This document shows positions 3,833-21,721 of a DNA stretch of 22,689 nt, piece after piece; the stretch's first letter is position 1, and every line of letters begins with the position of its first letter. Below the pieces are notes generated by a model, which was given only the letters and a program-made list of their open reading frames with translations, was not told where the DNA came from and did no database searches. The translations under genes were made by a program, and so were the position numbers. This stretch comes from a virus, in IMG/VR virus record IMGVR_UViG_3300017969_005705, positions 1 to 22,689 of that record; one strand, given 5' to 3'.

Positions 3833-5202
3833 ATGAGATAGATCATATCAAGAATGTTTTAGATATTACAAATAAAGAAGTAAGTCCAACATTTTGTTTA
3901 GCTAAATGGCATCATACAACTCTTTATCTGCAAACTGGGGAAACGCATAGCTGTTATCACCCGCCTCCGCATAAAATATTAATAGAAGAAATAAAAAATA
4001 ATCCTAGTGCTTTGCATAATACAAGTGAAAAAAAAATGCAAAGAAGTTTAATGTTAAAAGGAGAAAAGCCTGTAGGATGCAATTATTGTTGGAATATAGA
4101 AAATTTAGGGTCCGAGTATGTAAGTGATAGGCACATAAAGACAGCAAGTATTTATACACCAGAAAGATTAGCTGAAATAAAAAATAATTCTTTTGATTTT
4201 AACATCAATCCAGAATATATAGAAATTTCTTTCTCGAATGAATGCAATTTTAAGTGTGGTTATTGTCATCCTAAAGCAAGTAGTAGATTTTGGAACGAAA
4301 TTGAAGAATTTGGACCATACAAAGACAGTACAGAGCATAGGCAAGATATAGATTGGTTTACAGTTTATAAAACCGAAGATGAAAATCCCTTTGTAGAGGC
4401 ATGGTGGAAATGGTGGCCTACTGTATCAAAAACACTTAACATTTTAAGAATAACAGGTGGAGAACCTTTATTGCACAAAAGTACTTGGAAATTGTTAGAC
4501 CTTTTAGATAAAAATCCTAAACCCTATCTTCAAATTGAATTAAATACAAATCTTGGAGTTAAAAAAAGTTTAATTGAAAAATTAGTAAAAAAAATAACAA
4601 AATTACATCAAGAGAATAAAATTAAAAGTTTTAAATTGTATTCATCTATAGATACATGGACGAGTAGAGCCGAATATGTTAGAACAGGACTAGATCTAAA
4701 ATTATGGGAAGAGAATTTAGATTATTTTTTAATGAATTCTAACTATCCAATAACTTTTATGATTACTTTTAATATATTTTCAGTAACAAGTTTTGATAGC
4801 TTATTGTTAAAGATATTAGAATGGAGAAAAAAGTATAACAATGATAAAGTAGAGCAATGGCAAAGAATAAGATTTGACACTCCACATTTAAAAGAGCCTT
4901 ATATTTTTGATATGAATATTTTGCCAAAAAGTGAATATCTTCCTTATATGTACAAACACATGGACTTTTTTAAAAAAAATTTAGATGATAATAATAAATT
5001 AAAATTTTCTACTATTGAGTTGAAAAAATTTGATAGGATTTTGAATTATATGAAAGGAACAGAATTTTCTGAGTTGAAACTTTTAGAAATAAGGAGAAAT
5101 TTTACAAATTGGTTTGATGAATATGATAGAAGAAGAAAGTTAAACAGATACGATTATTTTCCTGAAATGAAAGGTTTCTTTGAGTTGTGTAAAAAAATAT
5201 AA
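3829..5202 (+). CDS. Radical SAM protein 1, N-terminal Cys cluster (twitch/SPASM-like), 457 aa
   Basis: A radical SAM enzyme that would cleave S-adenosylmethionine with a [4Fe-4S] cluster to make a 5'-deoxyadenosyl radical. The cluster motif is CNFKCGYC (C139, C143, C146) and the SAM-contacting GGEP is at 210-213. Ahead of the core is a Cys set C23 (FCLAKW), C42, C84 and C87 (CNYC), spaced like ligands of an auxiliary iron-sulfur cluster. It differs from its neighbours in having a single Cys at position 42, where the others have a CC pair, and Lys in place of Pro in FCxxPW. The C-terminus carries the D-x-x-R...FPE signature near residues 433-446 shared with other members here. The substrate is unknown. 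The start is the ATG of an ATGA overlap with the previous gene. Confidence 0.88.
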   Translation: MNEIDHIKNVLDITNKEVSPTFCLAKWHHTTLYLQTGETHSCYHPPPHKILIEEIKNNPSALHNTSEKKMQRSLMLKGEKPVGCNYCWNIENLGSEYVSDRHIKTASIYTPERLAEIKNNSFDFNINPEYIEISFSNECNFKCGYCHPKASSRFWNEIEEFGPYKDSTEHRQDIDWFTVYKTEDENPFVEAWWKWWPTVSKTLNILRITGGEPLLHKSTWKLLDLLDKNPKPYLQIELNTNLGVKKSLIEKLVKKITKLHQENKIKSFKLYSSIDTWTSRAEYVRTGLDLKLWEENLDYFLMNSNYPITFMITFNIFSVTSFDSLLLKILEWRKKYNNDKVEQWQRIRFDTPHLKEPYIFDMNILPKSEYLPYMYKHMDFFKKNLDDNNKLKFSTIELKKFDRILNYMKGTEFSELKLLEIRRNFTNWFDEYDRRRKLNRYDYFPEMKGFFELCKKI

Positions 5203-6355
5203 TGACTATTTGATATTTATTGATAACACACAAAATTTATATGATGCTATACAGATTGATAATATATATATAGAAAGATTATTTGGTGTATTTAATGGGT
5301 TTGATATCACAAAAGTTAGAAATATTTCTTATTTAAATTTTGCTCCTGAAAATGTTCTGAAGCTAGTATTATGCCATATGCATTTGCCACTAAATTATGA
5401 AATAAATCTTGCTGATGAAACATTAATTAAAATTAATAATTCTCCTAATACTTTTTTATGGATTGTTAGTTTTTTTGAATTCTTTTTTGCCCAAGACAAA
5501 CTTTTAAATTCTATTAATTCTAGGATAATACAAGAAAAAAAAGTTATACTAACTACAAGTAATAGTAACTATAAGAATAAAATAATTAATAAAGTAAAGT
5601 TTACGTCTGTAAATACATTCTGGTGGGGATTTCATCGACATGTAATTAATCATTACCCACAGACTGCTCTTATCAAACCTTTGGAAAAGTATGATAATTT
5701 GAAGAGAGCTAAGAAAAAATTTTTATGTTTAAATCAAAATTTAAAAACTCACAGAATTTGGACAGTTTATCATATTTTAAAAGAAAATGCAGAAAAGCAA
5801 GGTTACCTCAGTTGCAGATTTGATTTAATGATTAAATTACAAAAAGATTCTGTTTTAGCAGGTTGGTATAGCAATATTAATAGGTTACCAGACAAAGATA
5901 TCGCTGAAAAGATGTCTAATGGAATTATTTTAGATAGGATTAAAGGTAAATCCGTATATAGACCAGAAGATTCTATAATGTCATATTATATGAAGTCTTT
6001 ATTCAGTATTATAACAGAATCTGATGTAGTAGAAGATTTTGTTACAGAAAAAGTATATAAAGCAATTTGTTGCTCACATCCTTTTATTATAATAGGAAGT
6101 AAAAAGTATATTACAACATTACACTCACTTGGTTTTCAAACGTACGAAGAAATATTCGGAACATCTTATATTGATAATGAACATGATTTTCAAAGATTTG
6201 TTAAAAAAATAAAAATAATGCCGCTAGATGTAATTAAGGAAAAAATTGTTGCAGTAAAAAACAAAGTAGAATATAATTATAATCATTTTCTGCAAACACC
6301 TTTACCGTTTAATCAAATAATTGAAGATATTTATAAAGTATTAGAAAATGAATAA
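5180..6355 (+). CDS. GT-B-like transferase, exostosin/GT10-like C-terminal region (391 aa)
   Basis: The C-terminal half has the pattern FVTEKVYKA (287-295), HPFIIIGS (300-307) and LHSLGFQTYEEIF (314-326), which resembles the nucleotide-sugar-binding region of exostosin- and GT10-type glycosyltransferases. A paralogue on the other strand (20624-21721) shares this region and the earlier K-x-F-x-C-x-N...HR segment (180-192 here). The role is likely sugar transfer; donor and acceptor are unknown. It is the only non-radical-SAM gene inside the radical SAM block. The start is uncertain: TTG at 5180 has AAAGG five bases upstream and overlaps the previous gene by 23 bases; another in-frame TTG lies at 5210, and no ATG is near. 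Residue numbers assume 5180. Confidence 0.7.
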   Translation: MSCVKKYNDYLIFIDNTQNLYDAIQIDNIYIERLFGVFNGFDITKVRNISYLNFAPENVLKLVLCHMHLPLNYEINLADETLIKINNSPNTFLWIVSFFEFFFAQDKLLNSINSRIIQEKKVILTTSNSNYKNKIINKVKFTSVNTFWWGFHRHVINHYPQTALIKPLEKYDNLKRAKKKFLCLNQNLKTHRIWTVYHILKENAEKQGYLSCRFDLMIKLQKDSVLAGWYSNINRLPDKDIAEKMSNGIILDRIKGKSVYRPEDSIMSYYMKSLFSIITESDVVEDFVTEKVYKAICCSHPFIIIGSKKYITTLHSLGFQTYEEIFGTSYIDNEHDFQRFVKKIKIMPLDVIKEKIVAVKNKVEYNYNHFLQTPLPFNQIIEDIYKVLENE

Positions 6356-7559
6356 AACCTTTTGTATATATCCTTGGATAAATTTCCATACAACAACTGA
6401 AGGAAGATGTAAGCTATGTTGTCATGTTTACACAGAAGATTATATTAAAGTAGGTGATAATGATGCTATTGTAGGGCATCATGATATAGATCAAATATGG
6501 TTCGGTGATTATATGGAAAATGTTCGTAATAAAATGCTAAATGGAGAGCCAGTTAAAGAATGTAGCAGATGTTATGAACACGAATTAAAAGGTATAGAAA
6601 GCAGTAGAGAATGGGCTAATAAAAATTATTTTACTAAACAATATCTAAGTTTAGAATATCCTAAACATTTAGAGTTAAGATTAGGAAATAAATGTAATTT
6701 AAAATGTAATAGTTGTTGGAGTGTTAGTAGTAGTAATTTATATAAAGAGCGTAAAAAAATTATGTCTATAGATAAGGACATTCCAGACTGGATCAATAAT
6801 CAATGGCATCATGAAATTAACATTGTGGAAAGTTTTGATTTTAAATGGTTTGAAACTAAAGAATTTTCGACTTTTATTGATAAAGTTAGTCCTACACTAG
6901 AAAAATTATATTTAACAGGAGGAGAACCAACTTTAATAAAAGCAAATGTAAATGTGTTAAATTCTTTAATAAAATATAATAATAATAGTTGTTATGTAGC
7001 ATGGACTACTAATTTAACATCTTGGCCACAAGAATTTTATGAATCTTTAGATTTTTTTGATAGCAGTGAAGTCCAAATGAGTATTGATGGATATAAATCT
7101 TCAAACACATACATCAGATATCCTACCGAATGGGATATTGTAGAAAAAAATTTTAAAAATGCGTTGGATTTACCTAGTAAAGTTTCGTTGAAAGTATATT
7201 TTGTTGTACAAGCTTGGAATCTGTTAGATATTAGAAAGCTTGTAACATGGTTAGAAACATTTGAAAGGAAAATTGATTTTGTACCTATATTTTTAGAGTA
7301 TCCGGATCAGTTACATTCAACAGTTTGGCCTAAAGAAGTGATTGAATTTATAATTAATGATTTACAAAAGATTTATACAAAAAGGCACAGTAATTCAATA
7401 GAGAGAATTATAAATTATTTACATGATTCTATTTATGATAAAAAGAAAATAACAAAAATGAAAGAATTCATTGCCATTAACGATAAATATAGGAAAATTA
7501 AATTTAAAGATATATTTCCTTATTTCCATCAAATAATAGAAAAAGAGTGCAAGATTTAA
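6348..7559 (+). CDS. Radical SAM protein 2, N-terminal Cys cluster (twitch/SPASM-like), 403 aa
   Basis: The radical SAM cluster motif is CNLKCNSC (C116, C120, C123), followed by LTGGEPT with GGEP at 191-194. The N-terminal segment is FCIYPW (C6), a CC pair (C24, C25) and CSRC (C72, C75), the pattern repeated in five other proteins of this window and probably ligating a second iron-sulfur cluster. The C-terminus has a weaker form of the shared signature (INDKYRKIKFKDIFPYF). The enzyme class is clear; the reaction is not. Radical SAM proteins with extra clusters act on peptides, sugars and cyclitols among others. The ATG at 6348 lies 8 bases inside the preceding gene, and the next gene starts 13 bases before this one ends. 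Confidence 0.88.
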   Translation: MNKTFCIYPWINFHTTTEGRCKLCCHVYTEDYIKVGDNDAIVGHHDIDQIWFGDYMENVRNKMLNGEPVKECSRCYEHELKGIESSREWANKNYFTKQYLSLEYPKHLELRLGNKCNLKCNSCWSVSSSNLYKERKKIMSIDKDIPDWINNQWHHEINIVESFDFKWFETKEFSTFIDKVSPTLEKLYLTGGEPTLIKANVNVLNSLIKYNNNSCYVAWTTNLTSWPQEFYESLDFFDSSEVQMSIDGYKSSNTYIRYPTEWDIVEKNFKNALDLPSKVSLKVYFVVQAWNLLDIRKLVTWLETFERKIDFVPIFLEYPDQLHSTVWPKEVIEFIINDLQKIYTKRHSNSIERIINYLHDSIYDKKKITKMKEFIAINDKYRKIKFKDIFPYFHQIIEKECKI

Positions 7560-8524
7560 AAGCAATTATACCAGCAAAAGAAAAATGGTGTAGTATAGTT
7601 TGGCAAGTAAATGATTGGTGCAATTACAGGTGCTCATACTGCAATGATTGGAACTGGGCTGGTAGGAACAAGAATGATAAAAACATTAATTTAATTGTAA
7701 ACACTCTTGAAAATATAATAAATTTTTATAAAAAAAATGGATATAGATATTTTAAATTGTATCTTAGTGGTGGTGAACCGACTTTTTGGGACGGACTGAT
7801 TCCTGTTGTAGAAAAATTTAGGGAGTTAGCAACTTGGCCAGGCAGTTGTGTTGGAATCAATACAAATTTTAGTAGATCAACAACTTGGTGGGAAGAAAAT
7901 CATCATTTATTTGAAGATGTTGTTGCCAGCTATCATGCAGAATGGACCAAAGAAGAAAAATATCTTAATTCTTTTAAATTTTTACAAACGAAGAAAAACT
8001 ATTTATGCAGTCGTATAATGATGCATCATCAGCTATTTCAACAATGTATTAACTTTGGTGAACGTATAAAAAAAGAGTGTCAAAATTATATAATAGAATA
8101 TGCTCCTGTTTATGACGAATTAAGACCAACAACTGACCCTTACAATTATAATGAGAAATGGCAAATGGATTTTTTTAAAAATAATAGTACAGTTTATAAA
8201 CAAACTGTGCCAATTAAAAAAAATCCTAATTATGCATGGGCGAAAATAGAATTTATTGACGGTACAACATCTCCTATCAACACAAATGCTTTAATAACTG
8301 AAAGGAAAAATTTTTTCAAAGGATGGACTTGTAATATCCATGAAAGTTTGCATATTCATCCAAATGGAAAAATTCAAGCTGCAAGTTGCGGAGTTGGTCC
8401 AGTTCTTGGCAATATTGTTCTTGGAGAATTTAATAGTCATTTAGTAGAAGGTGTAATTTGTCCAAAAAACCATTGTCATTGTGCAGCTGATTTTAACATT
8501 ACAAAATTTAAACAAAGAACATAG
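7547..8524 (+). CDS. Radical SAM protein 3, C-terminal Cys cluster (SPASM-like), 325 aa
   Basis: This enzyme has the reverse layout of its neighbours. The radical SAM motif CNYRCSYC comes early (C25, C29, C32) with GGEP at 75-78. A Cys cluster lies at the C-terminus: C262, C281, C305, C310 and C312 (ending KNHCHCAADF), preceded by HPNGKIQAASC, a SPASM-like arrangement for an auxiliary [4Fe-4S] cluster. No FCxxPW segment is present, although a lone C15 precedes the core. Trp is abundant around the motif (VNDWCNY, NDWNWAG). The start is a GTG at 7547 overlapping the previous gene by 13 bases; there is no in-frame ATG ahead of the cluster motif. The substrate is unknown; it may act with the surrounding radical SAM enzymes in one pathway. 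Confidence 0.86.
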   Translation: MQDLKAIIPAKEKWCSIVWQVNDWCNYRCSYCNDWNWAGRNKNDKNINLIVNTLENIINFYKKNGYRYFKLYLSGGEPTFWDGLIPVVEKFRELATWPGSCVGINTNFSRSTTWWEENHHLFEDVVASYHAEWTKEEKYLNSFKFLQTKKNYLCSRIMMHHQLFQQCINFGERIKKECQNYIIEYAPVYDELRPTTDPYNYNEKWQMDFFKNNSTVYKQTVPIKKNPNYAWAKIEFIDGTTSPINTNALITERKNFFKGWTCNIHESLHIHPNGKIQAASCGVGPVLGNIVLGEFNSHLVEGVICPKNHCHCAADFNITKFKQRT

Positions 8525-8538
8525 ATATAATTTAAAAA

Positions 8539-9843
8539 ATGGTAGTAGATAAAAATAAATTGCTAAAAGAATCTAAAACATTTTGTATGTTTCCGTGGAT
8601 GCATATTTACTCTAATCCTGACGGAACTACATGGCCCTGCTGTAATACTGAGCCTGAGGTTATAAATGAATCGTTGGAGAACAAGACTTTAGAAGAAATT
8701 TTTGTTAGCGAAAAATGGAATCAGTTGCGATTAGACATGCTTGAAGGAAAAGAAAATCCAGCATGTAGAAAATGCTATGCAGTTGAAAAAGCAGGCGGTG
8801 CAAGTTATAGAAGTTATGCAAATAAAGATTTTGGTAATAATATTGATTTGGTAGACAATACTTTACAAGATGGTAGTTTAGAATCGGTACAATTTAAATA
8901 TATAGATATTAGGTTTAGTAATCAATGTAATCAGGCATGTGCAACATGTGGGCCTGAATTTAGTACTTATTGGCAAAAACTATTAATAGATAATGACAGA
9001 TTTTTTGATAAATTTAAAAAATTTTATAGGTTATCAAATCATTCAAAAGAGAACATTTTTGAACAGTTAAAACCTCATTTTCCTACTGCTCAAGAAATTT
9101 ATTTTGCAGGCGGCGAACCTCTAATTATGGATGAGCACTATCAAATATTAAATCATCTAATAGATATAAAAGCTAATGATACTGTAAAGTTAAGATACAA
9201 TAGTAATTGTAGTAATTTTTACTATAAAAAAAGTAGTGTTATAAATTTATGGAATAAATTTAAATATGTTAAGTTAGGAGCAAGTGTAGATGCTGTTGAA
9301 GATGTTGCAGAGTTAATAAGATTTGGTACTAATTTTAAAACGTTATCTAGTAATTTAAAAGAAGCATTAACTTGTGAAAATTTAATATTACAATATGATA
9401 CTGTTGTAAGTGTACTAAACATTGATCATTTACCTTATATGTATGATTATTTGTTAGAAAATGATTTAGTGAATAAACAAACATGGTTTACACTTAATTT
9501 AGCCTTCACCCCTCTTCCTTTTAGTTTAACTAGTTTAATACCTAAATATAAAGAAAAATATTCCAAAAAAATATTAGATTATGCAGATTCTTTAGAAAAT
9601 AGAAAAGTTAAAAATATAGGAACATCGGCAAAAGAATTTTTAATTAATCAGTTAAGAGCAATACCTAATTTCATGTATGGAAGTGATACTTGGGAAAAAG
9701 ATGAAAAATGGTATGGGTTGCATGCACTTGTAGGTTGGACTATTAGAGATCATCAAGCTTTTGAAAATCTTATACCTGATGTTTATGATATGGCATTTAA
9801 TATAGCAAACAGATATGATAGAAATGGAAACAGAATTTCCTAA
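8539..9843 (+). CDS. Radical SAM protein 4, N-terminal Cys cluster (twitch/SPASM-like), 434 aa
   Basis: The N-terminal cluster segment is FCMFPW (C16), WPCC (C34, C35) and CRKC (C76, C79). The radical SAM motif is CNQACATC (C130, C134, C137) and GGEP is at 191-194. The segment YIDIRFSNQCN places it with proteins 5 and 6, which follow in tandem, so these three look like products of local duplication and divergence. Its C-terminus departs from the others: the D-x-x-R...FPE signature is replaced by RDHQAFENLIPDVYDMAF and then a short basic tail. It is preceded by a 14-base gap, the only break within the radical SAM run, with no clear ribosome binding site before the ATG. The substrate is unknown. 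Confidence 0.88.
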   Translation: MVVDKNKLLKESKTFCMFPWMHIYSNPDGTTWPCCNTEPEVINESLENKTLEEIFVSEKWNQLRLDMLEGKENPACRKCYAVEKAGGASYRSYANKDFGNNIDLVDNTLQDGSLESVQFKYIDIRFSNQCNQACATCGPEFSTYWQKLLIDNDRFFDKFKKFYRLSNHSKENIFEQLKPHFPTAQEIYFAGGEPLIMDEHYQILNHLIDIKANDTVKLRYNSNCSNFYYKKSSVINLWNKFKYVKLGASVDAVEDVAELIRFGTNFKTLSSNLKEALTCENLILQYDTVVSVLNIDHLPYMYDYLLENDLVNKQTWFTLNLAFTPLPFSLTSLIPKYKEKYSKKILDYADSLENRKVKNIGTSAKEFLINQLRAIPNFMYGSDTWEKDEKWYGLHALVGWTIRDHQAFENLIPDVYDMAFNIANRYDRNGNRIS

Positions 9844-11020
9844 ATATTTCTGTATGGCACCTTGGGTGCATATGAGTATATGGCAAACAGGAGATGCTTA
9901 TCCATGCTGTATTTACGATTGGCAAACACCAATTGGCAATATAAATCAGCAAGGAATTTATCAAACTTGGAATAGTCAAAAAATGAAGCAGTTACGCCTT
10001 GAGATGCTAAGAAATATTCCAGCACAAGGCTGTACAAAGTGTTTTGATTATGAAAAGAAAGGTATTTTATCTTATAGGCATAAGATGAATAAAGATTATA
10101 AACATCATTTTGATTTAGTAAAGTCTACAGATGAAACTGGCAAAGTAGAAAAATTGAATATTGCATATTTTGATGTAAGATTTTCAAATTTGTGTAATAT
10201 GAAATGCAGGTCTTGTGGTGCTCACTTTAGTAGTAAATGGGGAGAAGATCTTTACGGATCTCCTAAGATTATTGAAATCGAGTATGAGAATTTATGGGAA
10301 GAAATTGATCTTTTGTTGCCAAATGTAGAAGAAATTTATTTTACAGGAGGAGAAAGTTTATTCATGCCTCAGCATTATAAATTGTTAGATAAACTAATAC
10401 AAAAAAAGTTGTTTCCAAAATTAACGTATAATAGTAATGCAAGTAGATTAAATTTAAAAAATAATCATGTTGCAGATTATTGGAAGTATTTTACTGATAT
10501 AGAATTTTATATTAGTTTTGATCAAATATATGATAAGGCAGAATTTGCTAGACACGGTCAACAATGGAATATTATTTATAAAAATTTAATGTATATTAAA
10601 AACAATTTAAAACATGTTAAATTACGTCCTAATCCGACAATTAGCGTATTAAATATTTTAGATTTAGCTAATATAGTAAAATTTTGTTTCGATGAAAAAA
10701 TTTCATACAAATATCAAATGAATATGAACAATTTACTTATAACTCCTGAATATTTAAGTTGCACTATATTACCAAAAAGGTTAAAACAACTTGCAGAAGA
10801 AAGAATTAATTTTTTTATTAAAGAATTAAAATCTTATGACATTGAAAAAAATAATTTAGAAAAACTAAAACATAGTTTTTTAAAAGTTATAGAATTTATG
10901 TATAGTGCAGATAATACTCATATGATACCTATTTTTAAAAAAGAAATGCAAAGTTTAGATAAAAAAAGAGGTGAAAATTTTGTTAAAACCTATCCAGAAA
11001 TGACAGAGTTGTATGATTGA
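9815..11020 (+). CDS. Radical SAM protein 5, N-terminal Cys cluster, GGES variant (401 aa)
   Basis: The layout matches proteins 4 and 6: FCMAPW (C13), PCC (C31, C32), CTKC (C73, C76), then the radical SAM motif CNMKCRSC (C127, C131, C134). The motif that normally reads GGEP is GGES at 178-181 (FTGGESLF); Gly-Gly-Glu, which contacts the methionine end of SAM, is kept, so activity is still expected. The C-terminal signature LDKKRGENFVKTYPEM is clear. The ATG at 9815 gives a 29-base overlap with the upstream gene; a second in-frame ATG at 9824 is equally possible. Closest relative in the window by eye is protein 6, with matching phrases VRFSNLCN/IRVSNLCN and YQTWNSQKM/YQIWNSNSM. Confidence 0.88.
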   Translation: MIEMETEFPKYFCMAPWVHMSIWQTGDAYPCCIYDWQTPIGNINQQGIYQTWNSQKMKQLRLEMLRNIPAQGCTKCFDYEKKGILSYRHKMNKDYKHHFDLVKSTDETGKVEKLNIAYFDVRFSNLCNMKCRSCGAHFSSKWGEDLYGSPKIIEIEYENLWEEIDLLLPNVEEIYFTGGESLFMPQHYKLLDKLIQKKLFPKLTYNSNASRLNLKNNHVADYWKYFTDIEFYISFDQIYDKAEFARHGQQWNIIYKNLMYIKNNLKHVKLRPNPTISVLNILDLANIVKFCFDEKISYKYQMNMNNLLITPEYLSCTILPKRLKQLAEERINFFIKELKSYDIEKNNLEKLKHSFLKVIEFMYSADNTHMIPIFKKEMQSLDKKRGENFVKTYPEMTELYD

Positions 11021-12206
11021 AAATAAAGTATTTTGTATGATGCCGTGGATACATATGCATGTTTGGCCTGCAGGTACAGTTTATCCTTGTTGCATGGCCG
11101 ACCCAGAATTACCTATAGGAGATCTTAATAATAATTCAATTTATCAAATTTGGAATAGCAATAGTATGAAAAATTTACGGAAAAATATTCTTGCTAATAA
11201 AAGATCTCCTGAATGTAAACGTTGCTATGAATTAGAAGAAAATAATATACATACTTTAAGATTAAGTTCTAATGAAAATTTTAAGCATAGATTAGAAAAA
11301 ATACATAGCACTAAGGAAGATGGGTCGGTTGAAAAGTTTAATATGTATTACATGGACATACGGGTAAGTAATCTTTGTAATTTAAAATGTAGATCTTGTG
11401 GACCTCAGCTTAGTAGTAGCTGGTATGAAGATCATATTAGTTTACATGGAGATATACAACAACAGAAAATTTTAAAAGTTAATAAAAACTTTGTTAAAGA
11501 TTTATATCCATTATTATTAGATGTTGAAAGAGTTTATTGGGCAGGTGGTGAACCGTTAATAACTGAAGAACATTATGATATTTTAGACTTTTGGATAGAT
11601 AATAATAAAACAAATATTAAATTAGATTACACAACTAATTTTACTCAAATGAGGTATAAGAAAAAAACAATATTTGAGTATTGGAATTTTTTTAAGAGTG
11701 TTAGAGTAGCAGCTAGTTTAGATGCAAATTATAAAAAAGGAGAATTTTTAAGGAAAAATATTTCATGGAGTCAAATTGTTCAAAATAGAAAAGACATGAT
11801 AAAAGAATGTCCGGATGTATATTTTGAAATAACTCCTACTGTAAGTGTATACAATGTTTTTAATTTACCGGATTTTCATAAAGAATGGATTGAAGCAGGG
11901 TTGTTACGTCCGGAAAACTGGAGAATAAATATTTTGCTAGATCCTGTTTATATGAGATTACAAATTTTACCTATAGAATTGAAAAAATCTGTAACAAAAA
12001 AATACGAAAATCATATCAAATATTTAGAACAATTTCCAAATACAAAAAATGTTATAGATGGGTATAACAGTATCTTATCTTTTATGTCTGTAGGCAGGGA
12101 AAAGGAAATACATAGATTTAAAATTAAGACAAAATTATTAGATGAATTACGAAATGAAAACTTTAGAGATGTCTTTCCAGAATTAACAGAAATTGCTTAT
12201 GAATAG
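11013..12206 (+). CDS. Radical SAM protein 6, N-terminal Cys cluster (397 aa)
   Basis: N-terminal FCMMPW (C8), PCC (C26, C27) and CKRC (C68, C71) precede the radical SAM motif CNLKCRSC (C122, C126, C129); GGEP is at 178-181. The C-terminal signature LDELRNENFRDVFPEL is one of the clearest in the set. Similarity to protein 5 runs through the whole chain, including PIGDLNNNSIYQIWNSNSM against PIGNINQQGIYQTWNSQKM, which supports recent tandem duplication. It overlaps the upstream gene by 8 bases and the downstream B12-type gene by 8, counted from the ATG preferred for the latter. The reaction is unknown. Near-identical layouts with divergent core sequences suggest that the neighbouring paralogues act on related but different substrates. 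Confidence 0.88.
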   Translation: MIENKVFCMMPWIHMHVWPAGTVYPCCMADPELPIGDLNNNSIYQIWNSNSMKNLRKNILANKRSPECKRCYELEENNIHTLRLSSNENFKHRLEKIHSTKEDGSVEKFNMYYMDIRVSNLCNLKCRSCGPQLSSSWYEDHISLHGDIQQQKILKVNKNFVKDLYPLLLDVERVYWAGGEPLITEEHYDILDFWIDNNKTNIKLDYTTNFTQMRYKKKTIFEYWNFFKSVRVAASLDANYKKGEFLRKNISWSQIVQNRKDMIKECPDVYFEITPTVSVYNVFNLPDFHKEWIEAGLLRPENWRINILLDPVYMRLQILPIELKKSVTKKYENHIKYLEQFPNTKNVIDGYNSILSFMSVGREKEIHRFKIKTKLLDELRNENFRDVFPELTEIAYE

Positions 12207-14379
12207 TAAAATTGTAGATTTTTTTAGTTTACCAGATGCTCGATCAAAAGATAAAATTAAAAAACCTAATAAAGTAACAGCAGAAGATAAACATACTGCT
12301 ACACTTGAGATTATAAAAGAATTAAGTAAAGTAAGCCAAAAAGGGCTTGAAAATTTAGAAATTAATTACAATGTAGACAGAAAAACAAAAATTGTTCTTT
12401 GCTTATTGCCAGAGTGGGATTCAAATTTTCCTCCATATAACTTAGCAAAGCTTGCAGGCGCAATAAAAGTAAGCGGTTTTTTTTGTAAAAGTTTTGATTT
12501 AAACGCAGGAGCTCATCATTATTATCAAAATTTAGATAACAAATTAGATTATTATCCTTGGTCTCCCTTACGAGATTTTCATTGGCAAAATAATTTATAT
12601 TTTGAGGAATTGCATCCTGTGTTACAACCTTATTTTGATAAAAAAATACAAGAGATCGTTGAAATATCTCCGGATATTGTAGGTCTTACACTTTATTATT
12701 GTAATTATGAACCTTCTATTTATGTTGCAAATGAGCTAAAAAAATTCTTACCTAATATTAAATTTGTTGTAGGAGGACCTCATACTCATAATAGTTTTTT
12801 CAAAAGCAATAGTATTTTTGATTACGTTGTAAATGGAGAAGGTGAAAAACCTTTATTAGATATTTTAGAACAAATAGAGCAAGAAAAAGAAGTAGAGTTT
12901 ACAGATAAAAATGATAATAGTTTTTTTATTAGACAACCTGAAAACCAACGATATAATTTAAGTACTCTCCCATCACCTGATTATTCTGATTTTGATTTTT
13001 CACTTTATAAATTTCCTAATGGAGCATTGTGTGAAATTAGTAGAGGTTGTATTGCTAAATGCACATTTTGTGAAGAAACCCATTTTTGGAAATACAGGCA
13101 AAGAACTGCATTAAGCACACTAGAAGAAATTGAACGTATGTATTATACCTATGGTACAAATGTTTATTGGTTTATAGATAGTTTAGTTAATGGAAATTTA
13201 AATGAGTTAAGAGCTTTTTGCAGGGCAGTTCATCGGAAAGGATTAAAAATACACTGGACAGGATATGCTAGGTGCGACGGCAGAATGGATTTAGAGTATT
13301 ACAAAGATTTAAAAAAGGGAGGCTGTACAGTTTTAAATTATGGTATTGAAAGCGGTAGTCAGAAGGTCCTTGATAAAATGGATAAAAAAGTTACTGTTGA
13401 AGAAATGGAAGCAAATTTTAGAGATGGCAGTGCTGCTGGCATAGGTGCAATGACAAACTGGATAGTTGGTTTTCCTAATGAAAGACATATCGATTTTGAT
13501 AATACTTTAACATTTTTGTACAGAATAAAAGATAAAGGGTTATTATCTATAGCGCAAGGAACAGGATTTGTAGTAGGAGTAGATACTATAGTAGGACAAA
13601 ATTTTGACAAATTTGATCTCTTGCCCTATTATTATTATGATCATTGGATAACAAAGGATTTTAAAGCAAGTATTGCTCACAAAATGGTAAAAAATAAGCT
13701 TTTCAGTATATTTACAGACTTGATTAAGACAGACGAGGCTTGCGCTAAACCAACTAGAGAAAGGTTAGCTCAGGAACATTATAGAGTTGATTTTTTGAAT
13801 CCTGAGTTAGAAAAAGAAATACAATATACTTCAAAAGATTTTAATTATAATATAATAAATTCAAATATAGGACCATTCCAAGATAGTTTAATGAATGAAA
13901 TTTGGCCTTTTTTTCATATTTTGTGGAAAATAAAAGGTGGTTATAGTTTTCAACTGCTATTTAATATTAAGTTAGATCAAGAAGAATGGGGTATCAGGGG
14001 GTCGGCACCACTTAATTCTCTAATTAAATTTGATATTGATAATAATGGCAAATGGAAAGCCGATTGTACATTTGAATATAAGCAAGAAGATTATAATGGA
14101 TGGAATGATGTAAAATGGAAAGATCATTGGGGAAAAGAATTTTGTGCTCCAGATCCAGTAGGACCAGTGTGGAAAGTAACAGATTTTACAAGAGATACAA
14201 GTAACAGTGCAATACGTGCAAGAAAACTTGCTTGGAGAGATGATATTAAATATGATAATAGAGATCCGAAAAATGCTTTTAACGAAGACGAATATACGCA
14301 AATAGTACAAGAATTTTTAAATTATAGAAATATAAATTTTAGTTTTAATTATGAGTTCAAAAACAATGGAAAATGGTAG
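12199..14379 (+). CDS. Radical SAM protein 7: B12-binding-type (class B), 726 aa with long C-terminal extension
   Basis: Residues about 64-225 form a Rossmann-like segment of the cobalamin-binding type (KIVLCLLPEWDSNFPPYNLA, then DIVGLTLYY, IKFVVGGPHTHNSFF and VVNGEGEKPLLDIL). The radical SAM motif follows in SRGCIAKCTFC (C284, C288, C291), then YGIESGSQKVLDKM (381-394) and WIVGFPNE (421-428), typical of the class B/Elp3-like barrel. Such enzymes often methylate unreactive carbons or rearrange rings. I see no DxHxxG cobalamin motif; many radical SAM relatives lack it. The last ~250 residues are Trp- and Asp-rich and unrecognised. I prefer ATG at 12199 over the in-frame TTG at 12193, because it gives the usual 8-base overlap and a normal start codon. 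Confidence 0.85.
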   Translation: MNSKIVDFFSLPDARSKDKIKKPNKVTAEDKHTATLEIIKELSKVSQKGLENLEINYNVDRKTKIVLCLLPEWDSNFPPYNLAKLAGAIKVSGFFCKSFDLNAGAHHYYQNLDNKLDYYPWSPLRDFHWQNNLYFEELHPVLQPYFDKKIQEIVEISPDIVGLTLYYCNYEPSIYVANELKKFLPNIKFVVGGPHTHNSFFKSNSIFDYVVNGEGEKPLLDILEQIEQEKEVEFTDKNDNSFFIRQPENQRYNLSTLPSPDYSDFDFSLYKFPNGALCEISRGCIAKCTFCEETHFWKYRQRTALSTLEEIERMYYTYGTNVYWFIDSLVNGNLNELRAFCRAVHRKGLKIHWTGYARCDGRMDLEYYKDLKKGGCTVLNYGIESGSQKVLDKMDKKVTVEEMEANFRDGSAAGIGAMTNWIVGFPNERHIDFDNTLTFLYRIKDKGLLSIAQGTGFVVGVDTIVGQNFDKFDLLPYYYYDHWITKDFKASIAHKMVKNKLFSIFTDLIKTDEACAKPTRERLAQEHYRVDFLNPELEKEIQYTSKDFNYNIINSNIGPFQDSLMNEIWPFFHILWKIKGGYSFQLLFNIKLDQEEWGIRGSAPLNSLIKFDIDNNGKWKADCTFEYKQEDYNGWNDVKWKDHWGKEFCAPDPVGPVWKVTDFTRDTSNSAIRARKLAWRDDIKYDNRDPKNAFNEDEYTQIVQEFLNYRNINFSFNYEFKNNGKW

Positions 14380-15703
14380 TAGATTAACAGATACTTATTG
14401 CTATCATATAATGCAAGGAGTAAGTATTTCTGGTGTAGGTAGAGCAAGGCCTTGTTGTGTGTCTGAGCCTATGAATATTAAAAATTTTGTCTCTCCAGAA
14501 AGTTTAAAGATTTTTTCTAATGATAATGATAAAGGACATGTTTGCAGTAATTTAGAAGAACTAATTAATGATCCTGTTTTAAAAAAAATAAGGGCAAATA
14601 TGTTACTAGGAAAACGTTCTGATGAATGCAAATATTGTTATGCAAGAGAAGATGCAGGATTAACAAGTTTTAGACAAATACATAATGACATACATGAAGA
14701 TAAAATAGATAAAAAAATTAAAAATGTTAGGGCTGATGGTTTTTTAAAAACAGAAGCAATTTCGTATTTGGATATTACTTTAGGAAATATTTGTAATTTA
14801 AAATGTAGGACTTGTAATCCCTGGTCTAGTCATAGTTGGTTAGAAGAAGCTAAAGTTATTCCTCATATTAATATAGATAGTAAATATTCATTAGAAAATT
14901 ATGTGAATTCAGAACAGTGGTATGTTCATGCATTTAAAACAGGTTTTTTTGATGATGTTTTACCTAATGTAAAACATATAAATTTTTTAGGAGGAGAGCC
15001 TTTAGTTGTAGAGGTGCATTATGAGTGGCTGCAAAAAATAGTTGAAAAAGGATTATCAAAAGAAATAGAATTGCATTATAACACAAATCTTACAACTTTA
15101 CCTAGGAAAATTTTAGAAATTTGGAAATATTTTAAGATGATACATTTATCATTAAGTATTGATGCAGTAGGTAAATTAGCATATTATGTTAGATATCCTA
15201 GCAAATGGAAAAATATTGAAAAAAATGTAGATAAGTTAATTGTTTATTCAACTAATAGTAAAAATTTCAGTGTTCAGACTCATTTAACATTAAGTGTACT
15301 AAATATTTTTGATATTGATAATGTATTAAATTGGTGTATAGAACAATATAATAAATGGCATTTTATAGATAATAAAAGTTTTGTTCATTATGGGTATAGA
15401 AATATGTTACCTCATGTAAACATAGTAGAAAATCCCGAATATATGCATGTAAGGCATCTTCCCAATGATGTAAAGAACATTGTTTGTAAAAAAATAGACA
15501 AAGTGTGTCAATATATTTCTCACTTAGGCATTCCTGATTGGGAAATTAACAAATTGAATGACATTTTAAATTTAAAAAGTATGATTAATTTAGATAGGAA
15601 CGAAAAAAGTTGGAATAAATTTATTGAAAATACTAATGCAAGCGATGCATTTAGAAAATTATCTATTAAAGAATATATAAATTGGACAAATACACACATA
15701 TGA
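14351..15703 (+). CDS. Radical SAM protein 8, N-terminal Cys cluster (450 aa)
   Basis: The radical SAM motif is CNLKCRTC (C148, C152, C155) with LGGEPL (GGEP 214-217). The N-terminal cluster segment has C17 in DTYCYHIMQG in place of the FCxxPW of the others, then RPCC (C35, C36) and CKYC (C93, C96), with one extra Cys (C65) in a ~20-residue insertion. The region between the motif and GGEP is longer than in proteins 4-6. The C-terminus has only a faint form of the shared signature (DAFRKLSIKEYINW). It is the most diverged of the six N-terminal-cluster enzymes. The start overlaps the B12-type gene by 29 bases; an in-frame ATG at 14366 is an alternative. The stop overlaps the next ATG as ATGA. 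Confidence 0.86.
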   Translation: MSSKTMENGSRLTDTYCYHIMQGVSISGVGRARPCCVSEPMNIKNFVSPESLKIFSNDNDKGHVCSNLEELINDPVLKKIRANMLLGKRSDECKYCYAREDAGLTSFRQIHNDIHEDKIDKKIKNVRADGFLKTEAISYLDITLGNICNLKCRTCNPWSSHSWLEEAKVIPHINIDSKYSLENYVNSEQWYVHAFKTGFFDDVLPNVKHINFLGGEPLVVEVHYEWLQKIVEKGLSKEIELHYNTNLTTLPRKILEIWKYFKMIHLSLSIDAVGKLAYYVRYPSKWKNIEKNVDKLIVYSTNSKNFSVQTHLTLSVLNIFDIDNVLNWCIEQYNKWHFIDNKSFVHYGYRNMLPHVNIVENPEYMHVRHLPNDVKNIVCKKIDKVCQYISHLGIPDWEINKLNDILNLKSMINLDRNEKSWNKFIENTNASDAFRKLSIKEYINWTNTHI

Positions 15704-16449: not shown

Positions 16450-18417
16450 ATGTTTGATATTTTTTATATATCTAATGTCAAAGATGAAAACTTTTTTAAA
16501 ATAAAAAGCATTTACATTACTGTAAAAAAAGTTGACACAATTGAAGAAGCTCAAGAAAAATCCTTAACAAAATTTTTATGGGTTATTTGGAATGATGTTG
16601 ATGTAGAATTTAATTTTGATTTTATTCCTGATGAATGGAGTCAAAATATTACCCATGTGTTTAAAAATGACAATTGGTATGACGGTGTATGGTTATTACC
16701 AAAAGATATTAAGTTATCAAAAAAAGAAATAGAAAATAGATTTATTGTATCAAGAAAAGAAGTTGATCTTGTTGTATCAAAACCTATTAGTTTTGATATT
16801 TTTACTATAGAAACCTATAATGATTATTTATATGCTTTAGAAAATTCTAAAACCGAAATGTTTTGGGGCACGTGTAGTTCTATAGATACAGAAAATTTTA
16901 ATTTTAATTTTTATTTTCCTTTTTATGATAGATATAACAGGACAGAAAATCATGCATTTATACATAGAGTAGGAGATAAAGATTATTATAATGGGTTGTT
17001 TTTATTTTCTAAGCATAAACCAGTTACTAAAAAAGAAATTGATTATAGGCACTTAGTTTCTCGTAAGGAATGGGACATAGTTGCAAGTACACCTGTTAAG
17101 TATGATCAATTTAATATTGAAACATATGATGATTATCTATATGCATTAGAAAATTCTAAAACTGAAATGTTTTGGGCAAATACACCTAATATAGATACAA
17201 GCAATTTTGATTTTGATATGTATTTTACCCACGATAATGAATATGATAGAAAGATAAATCACGCATTCATCCATAGGGTTGATGATAAAGATTACTACAA
17301 TGGATTGTTTTTATTATCTAAGCATAAAATTTTATCAAAAAAAGAAATTGAATTTAGACATTTGGTTTCACGTAAGGAATGGGACATAGTTGCAAGTACA
17401 CCTGTAAATTACGCTATAATGAATGTAGATAATTACGATGATTATTTGCATGCATTCAAAAATTCCACTACAGAATTATTCTATGCAGTTCCGATGCAAG
17501 TTAAAGATATAGTTATTCCTAATTTATATTTTACACACGATGACGAATATAATAGAAAAGAAAATCATACATTCAAAAACATATGTAACGGAGAAGAAAA
17601 AGACAATGGAGTCTTTTTATGTTCAAAACATAAACCTATTAGTAAAAGAGAGCTTGAGCATCGACATATTGTACATAAAAAATCTTGGGATATTATTGTC
17701 TCTAGGCACAAGCCATATGATGTAGTGTTTATGAGTTATGATGAAGCATTGGCAGACAAGCACTATGAGCAATTGTTAAAGAAAGCACCTTACGCTACTC
17801 GGGTTCATGGTGTAAAAGGTATCCACCAAGCACATATACAGGCAGCAAAGCAATCGCAGTCTGAGATGGTATGGATTGTAGATGCCGATGCTATATTGTT
17901 GGATGATTTTAACTTTGATTTGTTTGTTGAGAAATGGGATAGAGAAACAGTTCACGTATGGAGATCAAAAAATCCTATTAATAATTTAGTTTATGGTTAT
18001 GGAGGAATAAAATTATTTCCCCGACAACTTACTGTCAACATGGATACTTCAAAGCCTGATATGACTACCTCAATCACAGATAAGTTTAAAGCTATGCAAG
18101 AAGTATCTAATATTACTGCATTTAATGTTGATGAGTTTTCGACTTGGAAATCTGCTTTTAGAGAATGTTGTAAATTAGCATCTAAGGTAATTGATAGACA
18201 AAAGTCTCAAGAAACTGAACAAAGATTAGATATATGGTGTACAATTGGCGAGGATAAAGAATTTGGAAAATATTCTATAGCTGGCGCAAAAGCAGGAAGA
18301 GAGTACGGTTATAAAAATCAAGATGATGTAGAAGCATTAAAGAAAATAAATGATTTTGATTGGTTAAAGGTTTATTGGAATGAATATAAAAATTTTAAAG
18401 AAATTAGAATAGATTAA
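16450..18417 (+). CDS. Tandem-repeat protein fused to a DxD transferase-like domain (655 aa)
   Basis: Residues ~1-420 hold four copies of a ~103-residue unit, roughly 1-112, 115-216, 219-320 and 322-420. Each has an acidic Asn/Asp/Phe segment (for example NFDFDMYFTHDNEYDRK), a DKDYYNGLFL-type strand, SKHK, and a closing VSRKEWDIVAS-type phrase. Units 2 and 3 are nearest; unit 1 is most diverged. Residues ~421-655 match the 308-residue protein at 2906-3832: RVHGVKG (451-457), VDAD (477-480, DxD type), INNLVYGYGGIK (510-521), W-x-x-x-FRE (566-572), IW-x-x-IG-x-D (595-602) and IAGAKAG (610-616). This part is probably a GT-A-like transferase. The repeats may bind the polymer or acceptor, or space the catalytic domain. 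No signal peptide is seen. Confidence 0.72.
   Translation: MFDIFYISNVKDENFFKIKSIYITVKKVDTIEEAQEKSLTKFLWVIWNDVDVEFNFDFIPDEWSQNITHVFKNDNWYDGVWLLPKDIKLSKKEIENRFIVSRKEVDLVVSKPISFDIFTIETYNDYLYALENSKTEMFWGTCSSIDTENFNFNFYFPFYDRYNRTENHAFIHRVGDKDYYNGLFLFSKHKPVTKKEIDYRHLVSRKEWDIVASTPVKYDQFNIETYDDYLYALENSKTEMFWANTPNIDTSNFDFDMYFTHDNEYDRKINHAFIHRVDDKDYYNGLFLLSKHKILSKKEIEFRHLVSRKEWDIVASTPVNYAIMNVDNYDDYLHAFKNSTTELFYAVPMQVKDIVIPNLYFTHDDEYNRKENHTFKNICNGEEKDNGVFLCSKHKPISKRELEHRHIVHKKSWDIIVSRHKPYDVVFMSYDEALADKHYEQLLKKAPYATRVHGVKGIHQAHIQAAKQSQSEMVWIVDADAILLDDFNFDLFVEKWDRETVHVWRSKNPINNLVYGYGGIKLFPRQLTVNMDTSKPDMTTSITDKFKAMQEVSNITAFNVDEFSTWKSAFRECCKLASKVIDRQKSQETEQRLDIWCTIGEDKEFGKYSIAGAKAGREYGYKNQDDVEALKKINDFDWLKVYWNEYKNFKEIRID
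17062..17405 (+). repeat. Intragenic tandem repeat with two identical 35-base blocks
   Basis: Bases 17062-17096 and 17371-17405 are identical over 35 bases. The period of 309 bases is exactly 103 codons, the repeat length of the encoded protein. Both encode RKEWDIVASTPV. Identity at the DNA level, with diverged flanks, points to recent duplication or gene conversion between repeat units 2 and 3 of the 655-residue protein. Confidence 0.85.
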
Positions 18418-18514
18418 TTCGTTACATCCTAAAAACGTTTTAGATTTGGGCTGTGGTTATAATGAATTTAAAGGAAAAATACATAATTTACTAGGGTTAA
18501 TCAATAGTAAATAA
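18413..18514 (+). pseudogene. Remnant of a class I methyltransferase (motif I region only)
   Basis: The frame starting just after an in-frame TAG at 18410-18412 reads to a TAA at 18512-18514 and contains HPKNVLDLGCGYNEFKGKI. This is a textbook SAM-binding motif I (V-L-D-L-G-C-G) with the segment that follows it in phage methyltransferases. There is no start codon, the N-terminal helix is missing, and the protein stops about 12 residues later, in place of the expected acidic motif II region (it reads LLGLINSK). The 5' end is cut by the end of the 655-residue gene and the 3' end by the late promoter-like motif of the next gene. It is too short to function and is best read as a leftover of a recombination event. 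Confidence 0.72.
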
Positions 18515-18517
18515 ATA
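18510..18517 (+). promoter_or_regulatory. Late promoter-like motif AATAAATA
   Basis: A NATAAATA match (the cyanophage form of the T4 late promoter -10 element) lies 13 bases ahead of the ATG at 18530, in the 112-base gap after the 655-residue gene. It overlaps the stop of the methyltransferase remnant. It could give the dehydrogenase its own transcript. The short leader that would result and the AT-rich background make this less certain than the site at 271-278. Confidence 0.42.
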
Positions 18518-18529
18518 TTAAAAAGCAGT

Positions 18530-19756
18530 ATGATGAAAATAGGATATATAGGCTTAGGCAAGCTAGGCATGCCCTGTGCCGAAGCAATTGTAGATAAAGG
18601 ATTCTTAGTCGAAGGATATGATATCAATACTGTATACAGCAAAAAAGTTCTTGTCTTAGACAGCATCGAATCAGCAGTAAAAAATAAAGATATTGTTTTT
18701 GTAGCAGTACCTACACCACATAGCAAAATGTATGATGGCGCGACACCATCCACAGATTTACCACCAAAGGATTTTACATATAATATAGTTACAGATGTTC
18801 TAATAGAAGCTAATAAGCATATGAACAAGAATCAATTATTAGTTCTAATTAGCACAGTTCTGCCAGGCACTGTAAGACGTGAGTTTGCTAAGTTAGTAAC
18901 GAATACAAGACTTATTTACAACCCATATCTTATTGCTATGGGAAGTGTAGCATATGATATGGTAAATCCTGAAATGGTAATGATTGGCACTCAAGATGGT
19001 AGCGAAACAGGCGACGCCAAACTGTTAAAAGAGTTTTATCAAAACATTATGGAGAATGATCCACGTTATGTAATTGGAACTTGGGATGAGTGTGAATGTA
19101 TTAAAGTATTTTATAATACTTTTATTTCAGCAAAGCTAAGTTTAGTTAATATGATACAAGACGTAGCTGAACGTCAAGGTAATATAAATGTTGATGTCGT
19201 TACAGAGGCACTAGCTCAGTCAGATAAACGTATTATGGGCCCACAATATATGACAGCGGGTATGGGCGATGGCGGAGCGTGTCATCCAAGAGATAATATT
19301 GCTCTGCGCTGGATGGGTCAACAGTTAGATTTAGGATATGATATTTTTGATTGCATTATGCAAGCTAGGGATATTCAAGCAGAAAATTTAGCTACAGTAT
19401 TAGTAACAGAATCTCAAAATAATGATTATCCAATAGTAATACACGGTAAAGCATATAAGCCAAATGTCGCATACACGGAAGGTAGTTACAGTATGTTGGT
19501 TGGACACTATTGTGAAGCAATGGGAGTAAAGCCAAACTATTTAGATCCATTGACTGGTGATAACTACGAACCACTTGGACCTTGTGTATTTTTATTAGCT
19601 CATAACTCATATGTTACCTATCAACATACAGGACAAAATTATGAGAATAAGCTATACTGTAAAATTCCTAATGATTCAATTGTAGTAGATCCGTGGAGAG
19701 CCTATAAAAATGATAAATGCAAAGTAATTCATTACGGTAATACTCGCCATGTATGA
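18530..19756 (+). CDS. UDP-glucose/GDP-mannose 6-dehydrogenase-like protein (408 aa)
   Basis: The N-terminus has the NAD-binding GxGxxG (G8-L-G-K-L-G13), a YDIN acidic end to the second strand, and VAVPTP at 58-63, as in nucleotide-sugar dehydrogenases that oxidise UDP-glucose or similar to the uronate by two NAD-dependent steps. The central helix region KVFYNTFISAKLSLVNM keeps the family Lys (K192) and Asn (N196). The catalytic-Cys loop is GDGGACHPRD with C251 present; the Lys that usually follows in family members is Arg here. The C-terminal nucleotide-binding domain runs to the end, including IHGKAYKPN. The start may be either of two consecutive ATGs at 18530 and 18533. The substrate sugar cannot be assigned. 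Gene remnants lie on both sides. Confidence 0.82.
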   Translation: MMKIGYIGLGKLGMPCAEAIVDKGFLVEGYDINTVYSKKVLVLDSIESAVKNKDIVFVAVPTPHSKMYDGATPSTDLPPKDFTYNIVTDVLIEANKHMNKNQLLVLISTVLPGTVRREFAKLVTNTRLIYNPYLIAMGSVAYDMVNPEMVMIGTQDGSETGDAKLLKEFYQNIMENDPRYVIGTWDECECIKVFYNTFISAKLSLVNMIQDVAERQGNINVDVVTEALAQSDKRIMGPQYMTAGMGDGGACHPRDNIALRWMGQQLDLGYDIFDCIMQARDIQAENLATVLVTESQNNDYPIVIHGKAYKPNVAYTEGSYSMLVGHYCEAMGVKPNYLDPLTGDNYEPLGPCVFLLAHNSYVTYQHTGQNYENKLYCKIPNDSIVVDPWRAYKNDKCKVIHYGNTRHV

Positions 19757-19969
19757 TATTGTTTTTATTTCATATAATGGGCCAAATGCTGATGAAAACT
19801 GGGCAGCATTAAATGGTGCACAGTTGGTGCAGATAAACCTTATGGAGAGCATGCCATAGCAGGGGCTAAAGCAGGCAGAGAATATGGTTATAAACATACA
19901 GGCAATGTAGAAGCATTAAAACAAATAAATGATTGTGATTGGTTAAAGGAGCAATTTGACAGTAACTAA
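19749..19969 (+). pseudogene. Internally deleted, frameshifted copy of the DxD transferase-like family
   Basis: The ATG at 19749 overlaps the dehydrogenase by 8 bases and opens a frame reading MYDIVFISYNGPNADENWAA, the N-terminus of this family (YDIIYLSYDEPNAEKNY in the 308-residue protein). After about 21 codons the match stops, and the frame ends at TAG 19857-19859. In another frame, from 19814 to a TAA at 19967-19969, the C-terminal end of the family appears: WCTVGADKPYGEHAIAGAKA and onward to INDCDWLKEQF, matching residues 596-640 of the 655-residue protein. About 150 residues, including the DxD motif, are gone and the frame is broken at the join. By hand, bases 19814-19949 and 18235-18370 match at about 107 of 136 positions without gaps. 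Confidence 0.85.
19945..19951 (+). promoter_or_regulatory. Ribosome binding site AAAGGAG selecting a TTG start
   Basis: AAAGGAG, one of the strongest Shine-Dalgarno matches in the window, ends four bases before the TTG at 19956. There is no ATG or GTG nearby in the methyltransferase frame, so this site decides the start. It sits inside the last codons of the broken transferase-like copy. Confidence 0.6.
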
Positions 19970-20633
19970 AATTTTAAACGGCATTGAATATTTGTATCCA
20001 GAAAATAATTTGATAGCACAAATAAAAAGAACTCTCAATTCATTTCCAGAATGCGAAGAGGCACTTACAGATGCGTTGTCTATTGGCCAACTGAAGAGTA
20101 AAATGTGGCTTATCGATCATCTACCAAATAATTTAGGTATTGTGTTTATTTGTGCAGGATGGTATGCTGTATTAGCGAGTATTATGTTTGAAAGTAATTT
20201 AAGGTTTGATAAAATTAGATCATTTGATATTGATAAATCTTGCGCTAATATCGCTGATACATTTAATAGAAAATATGTAGTTAATGGTTGGAAATTTAAA
20301 GCATCTACATTAGATATTCATAAATTAACATATCCGCTTACATATACAACATATCGAAAAGATGGCAGTAGTGTTGACTTGACAGAAATGCCTAATACAA
20401 TTATAAATACATCATGTGAACATATAGATAATTTTAGGTTATGGTATGATCATTTACCGCCTAATGTATTATTATGTTTACAAACAAATAATTATTTTGA
20501 AATAGAAGACCACATCAATTGTTCAAAATCGTTAGATCATTTCGCAGAAACAACTCCAATGTCTAATGTATTATTTGAAGGAGAGCTTCCTCTAGAAAAA
20601 TATAATAGATTTATGAGAATTGGCTACAAATAA
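19956..20633 (+). CDS. Class I SAM-dependent methyltransferase-like protein (225 aa)
   Basis: Residues 62-74 (VFICAGWYAVLAS) sit where motif I of a Rossmann methyltransferase is expected, with CAGW in place of GxG. RSFDIDKS at 88-95 is the acidic motif II that binds the SAM ribose, and NTIINTSCEHID at 147-158 takes the place of motif IV. Length and order fit a small-molecule or glycan O-methyltransferase; the substrate is unknown. The start is TTG at 19956, chosen because AAAGGAG precedes it by four bases and the next candidate starts would cut into conserved sequence. The start lies in the tail of the broken transferase-like copy, 14 bases before that copy's stop. It converges with the minus-strand gene, with a 10-base overlap of the two 3' ends. 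Confidence 0.7.
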   Translation: MTVTKILNGIEYLYPENNLIAQIKRTLNSFPECEEALTDALSIGQLKSKMWLIDHLPNNLGIVFICAGWYAVLASIMFESNLRFDKIRSFDIDKSCANIADTFNRKYVVNGWKFKASTLDIHKLTYPLTYTTYRKDGSSVDLTEMPNTIINTSCEHIDNFRLWYDHLPPNVLLCLQTNNYFEIEDHINCSKSLDHFAETTPMSNVLFEGELPLEKYNRFMRIGYK

Positions 20634-21721
20634 ATTTTATTGTAAAATTTAAATTTAGTAAAATCAAAAATATATTGTCTTCCATGAGGAGGCAGAACTA
20701 TTTTTCCAAAGTCTTTATGTAAGTCGTTATCATATATAAAATTTGGAATAGTAGTTTTGCTTACTTCAACTAGTTTGTCTAAATTATATTCTGCCACTTC
20801 TCTTGTTATGTGCCACAATTCATATGGATCTCTATTACAAAGATTTTTTACTTGCTCAACTACGGCAGTTATTCTATCTGATAATTTTTCATAATTGTCA
20901 AACTCATAATTAAATATAGAGTCATATAATTTGAATCCGTAATCTTGTAATTTTTTGTGTGCATATTGTTGCCCAACAATTATGAATGGTTTCAACATTG
21001 CTAAACAATAGCTAGTTTTTTCTGTAAAGAATATCTTATTATCAAATAATGATTGATGTTCAGTTTCTGGAACAATATGAATTGGTGCTTTATACCATTC
21101 GTTGGGCAAATACATTTTTACTAAATTAATCTGTTTTAAGTGGGTATCTTTTTCTTTGTAAGTATAATGCCTTTGTGATGCAAATGTTTTTATTTCTGGA
21201 GTCCAATGCTTAAAAATGTTGTTACTTTTTGGAATTTGTAAAACGTTGATATATCCATTATTTTCTAATTGCTGTTTGTAGATTTCATCTAAAAGTAAAC
21301 CTCGATGCTCTCTAAATTTTGCATTCATACATATAAATGTTTTATCAAACTTATAATTTATTAATTCAAATGGATCTAGATTGTATTCCTGATATAAATG
21401 CAAATCGCCTAAGCCAGTATTAAACCAGAAAGTTGGCCAATGTGTGATTGTAATATTTTCTTCAAGAACTCCTAACCGCCTTTCTATACGTTTTTTATCT
21501 ATGTCAAGATTACAAATAAAATGTAGTTTTAATTTTTTATAAATTTTACTAGATCGACTAGCTTTATGAAAAGTAACTGGCCAAGTATATTCATGTGGAT
21601 AAACTATGAAAAATTTGCCTTTTTTCATATTTTTTAGAACATATTGTACTTGAGTTGAAATAGTGCTAGATTGGCGAAACCAATGCTCGCCATTTTCTTT
21701 TATGTATAGATAATTATTCAT
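20624..21721 (-). CDS. GT-B-like transferase, exostosin/GT10-like C-terminal region (365 aa)
   Basis: This is the only gene on the minus strand. It is a paralogue of the protein at 5180-6355: KTFICMNAKFREHR at 127-140 matches KKFLCLNQNLKTHR, and the C-terminal donor-site-like region FFTEKTSYCL (231-240), KPFIIVG (244-250) and LQDYGFKLYDSIF (258-270) matches its counterpart in order and spacing. The N-terminal ~110 residues differ and are unique to this copy. The likely role is sugar transfer, with unknown donor and acceptor. The opposite orientation, convergent overlap with the methyltransferase and a 163-base divergent gap behind it suggest that it arrived as a separate unit. The start is the ATG read from 21721. 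Confidence 0.7.
   Translation of the reverse strand: MNNYLYIKENGEHWFRQSSTISTQVQYVLKNMKKGKFFIVYPHEYTWPVTFHKASRSSKIYKKLKLHFICNLDIDKKRIERRLGVLEENITITHWPTFWFNTGLGDLHLYQEYNLDPFELINYKFDKTFICMNAKFREHRGLLLDEIYKQQLENNGYINVLQIPKSNNIFKHWTPEIKTFASQRHYTYKEKDTHLKQINLVKMYLPNEWYKAPIHIVPETEHQSLFDNKIFFTEKTSYCLAMLKPFIIVGQQYAHKKLQDYGFKLYDSIFNYEFDNYEKLSDRITAVVEQVKNLCNRDPYELWHITREVAEYNLDKLVEVSKTTIPNFIYDNDLHKDFGKIVLPPHGRQYIFDFTKFKFYNKIYL

Follow-up and report, generated by a model that had tools for sequence, protein, structure and literature searches.

Displacement of C-terminal coding sequence is known from Rhs and T6SS effector genes, both in rhs loci (Jackson et al. 2009) and in the arrays of Vibrio cholerae (PMC5361080). 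The mechanism proposed for it combines homology on one side with illegitimate joining on the other (PMC5361080). Homology-facilitated illegitimate recombination is itself known from competent bacteria and from conjugation in E. coli (PMC3240628). We suspect that an event of this general kind shaped a glycosyltransferase gene in the virus sequence analysed here, and left behind the gene remnant found at 19749-19969. Based on sequence comparisons, this remnant is probably the recombination scar of two genes, rather than a single gene with a deleted middle. The window, that is, the whole stretch of DNA under study, is a complete IMG/VR virus record of 22,689 bases, and the features of 16450-20633 described below lie on its + strand. 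Elsewhere in the window, positions 3829-15703 hold an extended series of genes, several of which encode radical SAM-like proteins (judged by CxxxCxxC-type motifs in the translations), and a B12-binding radical SAM protein at 12193-14379 was confirmed by Pfam.

The preliminary description of this DNA had seen in 19749-19969 a broken copy of a transferase-like family, with N-terminal and C-terminal family sequence in two frames, about 150 residues lost from the middle and a start that overlaps the upstream dehydrogenase gene by 8 bases, and had taken it as evidence of turnover. All of these points were borne out. The family N-terminus (21-22 codons) is fused out of frame to the family C-terminus (51 codons), and the catalytic middle is missing. 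Frame 1 from the ATG at 19749 reads MYDIVFISYNGPNADENWAAL and then continues out of register to a stop at 19857-19859 (36 codons), and the other frame, from the TGG at 19814, reads WCTVGADKPYGEHAIAGAKAGREYGYKHTGNVEALKQINDCDWLKEQFDSN up to the stop codon at 19967-19969. The N-terminal stub occupies 19749-19812 and shares bases 19749-19756 with the dehydrogenase gene (DH). It is followed by the join at 19813, where about 1 base (A) may represent microhomology, and by the C-terminal remnant at 19814-19969.

The stub finds matches in many members of the family that lie next to a dehydrogenase gene, the best reaching about 82% over 22 residues. For the C-terminal part, the match to the 655-residue protein encoded by gene X has E = 1.5e-20, and the 79% base match given earlier was reproduced (110/140 bases). 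For both halves, the family matches exceed what chance would be expected to give. Relative to the short family members of 222-228 aa, the remnant lacks about 150 residues, and the invariant acidic DxD-type pair is among them. Without this pair and the ~150 residues around it, the remnant cannot be an active enzyme, and the loss of the DxD region likewise led us to reject a programmed frameshift yielding a functional protein. The stub has Gly (GGG) at a site where 38/38 aligned family members have Glu, and the C-terminal remnant has Cys (TGT) at a site that is mostly Phe in relatives; with one such change in each half, these are weakly consistent with dead sequence. Among the loci compared, only two others have split family genes, both with the two halves present and no middle missing, and remnants of the kind described here look rare.

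The parent family of both halves is predicted to have a GT-A glycosyltransferase fold. An AlphaFold model of the C-terminal domain of X (17695-18417) has a mean pLDDT of 91.7, and the PDB matches listed for it are mostly GT-A glycosyltransferases (WrtF, GalNAc-Ts, ArnC), the best with E 2.4e-05 and a TM score of about 0.4. The DxD-type acidic pair (D63 and D65) is invariant in 38 aligned family members. The match to Pfam Glycos_transf_2 scores 17.4 bits, below the cut-off of 23.3, and we therefore file the family as GT-A fold only and not under Pfam GT2. Among the isolate phages searched with the GT domain, none carries this glycosyltransferase family, and no relative was found in the species genomes searched with the GT query.

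Gene X is open across 16450-18417, with an intact core and a different 3' end from that in the remnant. Its 5' part (16450-18230) encodes N-terminal repeats and most of the GT-A domain, and its present 3' end (18231-18417; WCTIGEDKEFG...FKEIRID and a stop) would be a newcomer that restores the X frame. This 3' end is 79% identical to the remnant, and its closest DNA match (86.9%) is in the X gene of another viral locus, L117. The repeats of X lie at 16450-17700. Given that X ranges from 549 to 979 aa among relatives, the repeat number appears to vary.

Two types of family gene follow a dehydrogenase gene in related loci. The short type, Y, has 222-228 aa and starts with MYDIVFISY, and the repeat-bearing type, X, has 549-753 aa and starts with M[YF]DIFYI. 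The preliminary description had derived both ends of the remnant from one gene. Position-specific profiles that contrast X-type genes with short DH-adjacent genes, and that classified all leave-one-out controls correctly, instead place the halves in different subtypes: the tail, with +32.8 bits, scores as X-type, whereas the stub, with -29.5 bits, scores as short-type. A tree of the C-terminal columns, which has few columns and deep forks that do not resolve and so was used only for this pair and its nearest rows, joins the tail to the X gene of L004, the nearest relative found (support 97/92); the next nearest rows are other X genes. Three repeat-bearing genes elsewhere combine an N-terminus scored as short-type with a C-terminus scored as X-type, and a hybrid parent gene is thus conceivable.

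Intact family genes between DH and a methyltransferase gene, for which the preliminary description had suggested searching related contigs, are common among viral contigs (nine loci and others). They lend some weight to the explanation first offered for the remnant, an in-place deletion. In that scenario the order X-DH-Y-methyltransferase is ancestral, Y lost about 150 codons where it stood, and L004 separately gained the tail of Y by recombination between X and Y. Simple deletions are also common. Nevertheless, the lost gene would have needed a short-type start and an X-type tail, a combination found in none of the short DH-adjacent genes among all family members, and we consider this explanation unlikely, if still the one to be taken most seriously after our own.

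In L117, X is followed directly by the methyltransferase gene, without DH upstream, and in four relatives including this one X directly overlaps the methyltransferase gene. Since this is a normal order, the border between the tail and the methyltransferase gene in the window is a natural one. The methyltransferase gene itself (MT; 19956-20633) is predicted to fold as a class I SAM-dependent methyltransferase, and starts with TTG, 14 bases before the end of the tail. In relatives, the family gene tail normally extends 14-17 bases over the MT start, and its WLKE codons form an AAGGA(G)-like site. The corresponding site in the window, AAAGGAG at 19945-19951, is an SD-like sequence within the WLKE codons of the tail just upstream of the TTG. 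The earlier remark that the tail supplies the ribosome binding site of MT was therefore right, given that both the overlap and the SD-like sequence recur in relatives. The idea offered with it, that the fragment persisted on account of the signals in its ends, is dispensable here.

The key comparison is with L004/L035 (IMGVR_UViG_3300044723_007862), which is 97% identical to the window over the minus-strand gene at 20624-21721 and 99% over the downstream cytidylyltransferase gene. In this relative, the tail type preserved in the remnant is the 3' end of one intact X gene, and is 96.6% identical to remnant positions 19813-19959 over 147 bases of DNA. The core of X at 17281-18230 is 99.6% identical to that of L004 over 950 bases (4 differences), and the last 460 bases (17771-18230) are the same in both. 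At 18231 the window departs from L004, whose sequence beyond this point is ~79% identical to the present X tail of the window. The first matching base of the remnant, 19813, aligns with X position 18234, and thus the switch point in X and the border of the tail coincide within 4 bases. If the two breakpoints were independent, we estimate the chance of such a coincidence at 1-3%, assuming a uniform breakpoint over ~600 bases. An in-place deletion would require a separate event in L004 with a breakpoint matching that of the deletion within these 4 bases, and so it is not supported as the best reading of the remnant.

Two other observations were made in this comparison. The 950 near-identical bases of X lie between flanks of about 79%, which could reflect a recent or separate exchange, or strain mixing during assembly. 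At positions 2439-2467 of L004, after DH, there is a short stretch resembling an X-type start, ATGTATGATATATTTTATA, followed by a stop before MT. This match, although short and AT-rich, suggests another scar at the same slot, possibly from an independent and larger loss.

The change between the two viruses may also have run in the opposite direction. The window arrangement would then be the older, and the X gene of L004 would have formed by a crossover between the two 79%-identical tails, with the DH segment looped out. The two tails are in effect direct repeats flanking DH, and looping out is a simple event; the scar itself would in that case be of earlier origin. That crossover, however, would need to lie only a few bases into a 147-base homology, the base C at L004 position 1043 occurs in neither window copy, and L004 has a different DH (77-78%) and MT (76.5%) in place. 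On balance we consider this direction improbable, and somewhat more so than a deletion in place. Because only one close relative is present in the collections searched, the direction of change is unpolarised. A correlation of similarity profiles, carried out on the proteins, singled out neither tail as native to the X core.

Searches for further relatives gave little. When viral contigs were scanned for the peptide WCTVGADKPYG, no further record containing the join at 19813 came up, and the only close contig was that of L004, where the tail lies inside an intact gene. A search with the minus-strand gene returned the same contig and no further close relative, and one with the gene before X found no relative. 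The searches also found no donor with the same order of tail, fragment and DH.

The join is thus known from a single record, and the two contigs share an almost identical X core set between divergent flanks, a situation in which an assembler may change from one strain to another. It might be supposed that the join at 19813, or that between the core and tail of X, is a chimera of co-occurring strains. We regard this as very improbable. The overlap of ~1 base at 19813 leaves a k-mer assembler nothing to join on, and a misjoin there is unlikely because the family members seen have no sequence of k-mer length in common across the join. The conserved-site change in each half, consistent with dead sequence, also argues against an artefact.

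The segment between the two tails has fragments at its borders. DH (18530-19756) belongs to the UDP-glucose/GDP-mannose dehydrogenase family and is 77.7% identical in DNA to the DH that follows X in L004; the MT genes of the two viruses are 76.5% identical. The 112 bases between X and DH (18418-18529) encode ~28 residues, NSLHPKNVLDLGCGYNEFKGKIHNLLG, that correspond to an internal piece of class I methyltransferases about 225-232 residues long; intact members of this family occur in other viral contigs at 71-82% identity. This spacer thus holds a second broken gene, and would be a further border scar of an inserted segment. Taken as a whole, 18231-19812 has homology at its left end, a gene fragment inside and another gene fragment at its right end.

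We suspect that the tail in the remnant is the displaced original 3' end of X. In the proposed ancestor, X would have ended in the tail now at 19814-19969 and overlapped MT by the usual 14-17 bases. Foreign viral DNA, consisting of an X-type tail, the fragment of a methyltransferase gene, DH and the opening codons of a short family gene, would then have supplied a segment of 1,582 bases (18231-19812), which entered X by copying at a break near 18230, through either one-sided homology or template switching. At its left end, homology within the conserved "...RLDIWCT" codons would have guided the joining and left X open with a new tail. The right end would have joined without homology, at ~1 shared base, after 21-22 codons of the gene that follows DH. 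The former tail of X would have been pushed 1.58 kb downstream to its position before MT, where it still gives MT its ribosome-binding site. One such event would account for two breakpoints at nearly the same point of X, for halves of different subtypes and for the natural overlap between tail and MT.

If this reconstruction is correct, a fragment that has the look of a simple deletion can in fact be the end of a gene moved elsewhere, and the comparison with L004 gives borders at base level for an exchange of modules between uncultured viruses. A broader and more speculative idea, which we think unlikely to hold as a general statement, is that viruses of this group exchange tails together with cargo such as a dehydrogenase or a methyltransferase, with the conserved 3' portion of the repeat-bearing glycosyltransferase gene as a recurrent docking site. 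Were it true, this would amount to tip exchange of the rhs kind, directed at sugar modification. If displacement proved recurrent, viral glycosyltransferase genes would offer a setting in which to examine how such viruses swap sugar-modifying functions.

Among known processes, the mosaicism of phages produced by relaxed homologous recombination, in the terms in which PMC3945230 presents it, resembles the present case in that diverged phage sequences are exchanged at conserved coding stretches. Relaxed recombination as outlined there would on its own leave the non-homologous right border in the window unexplained. Homology-facilitated illegitimate recombination also yields an acquired segment with one homologous and one non-homologous border (PMC3240628). 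It is usually measured, however, with linear donor DNA in bacteria, whereas in the window it would be deduced from one virus sequence, and no recipient bases were lost. The closest parallel is probably with the rhs and T6SS loci: as in those, a conserved 5' core reads into a new 3' end, and the ancestral 3' part would have been displaced downstream. Unlike those loci, the gene here encodes a predicted GT-A-fold glycosyltransferase in a virus contig; neither a toxin nor an immunity gene takes part, and what lies between the tails as cargo is a dehydrogenase gene plus a methyltransferase fragment. With the tail belonging to a GT-A glycosyltransferase domain and a dehydrogenase gene between the two tails, the locus does not have the make-up of a polymorphic toxin and immunity system. 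By analogy, then, the X locus would work like rhs displacement but is not an rhs system. The present case suggests that this kind of displacement, familiar from toxin genes, may also affect glycosyltransferase genes of viruses.
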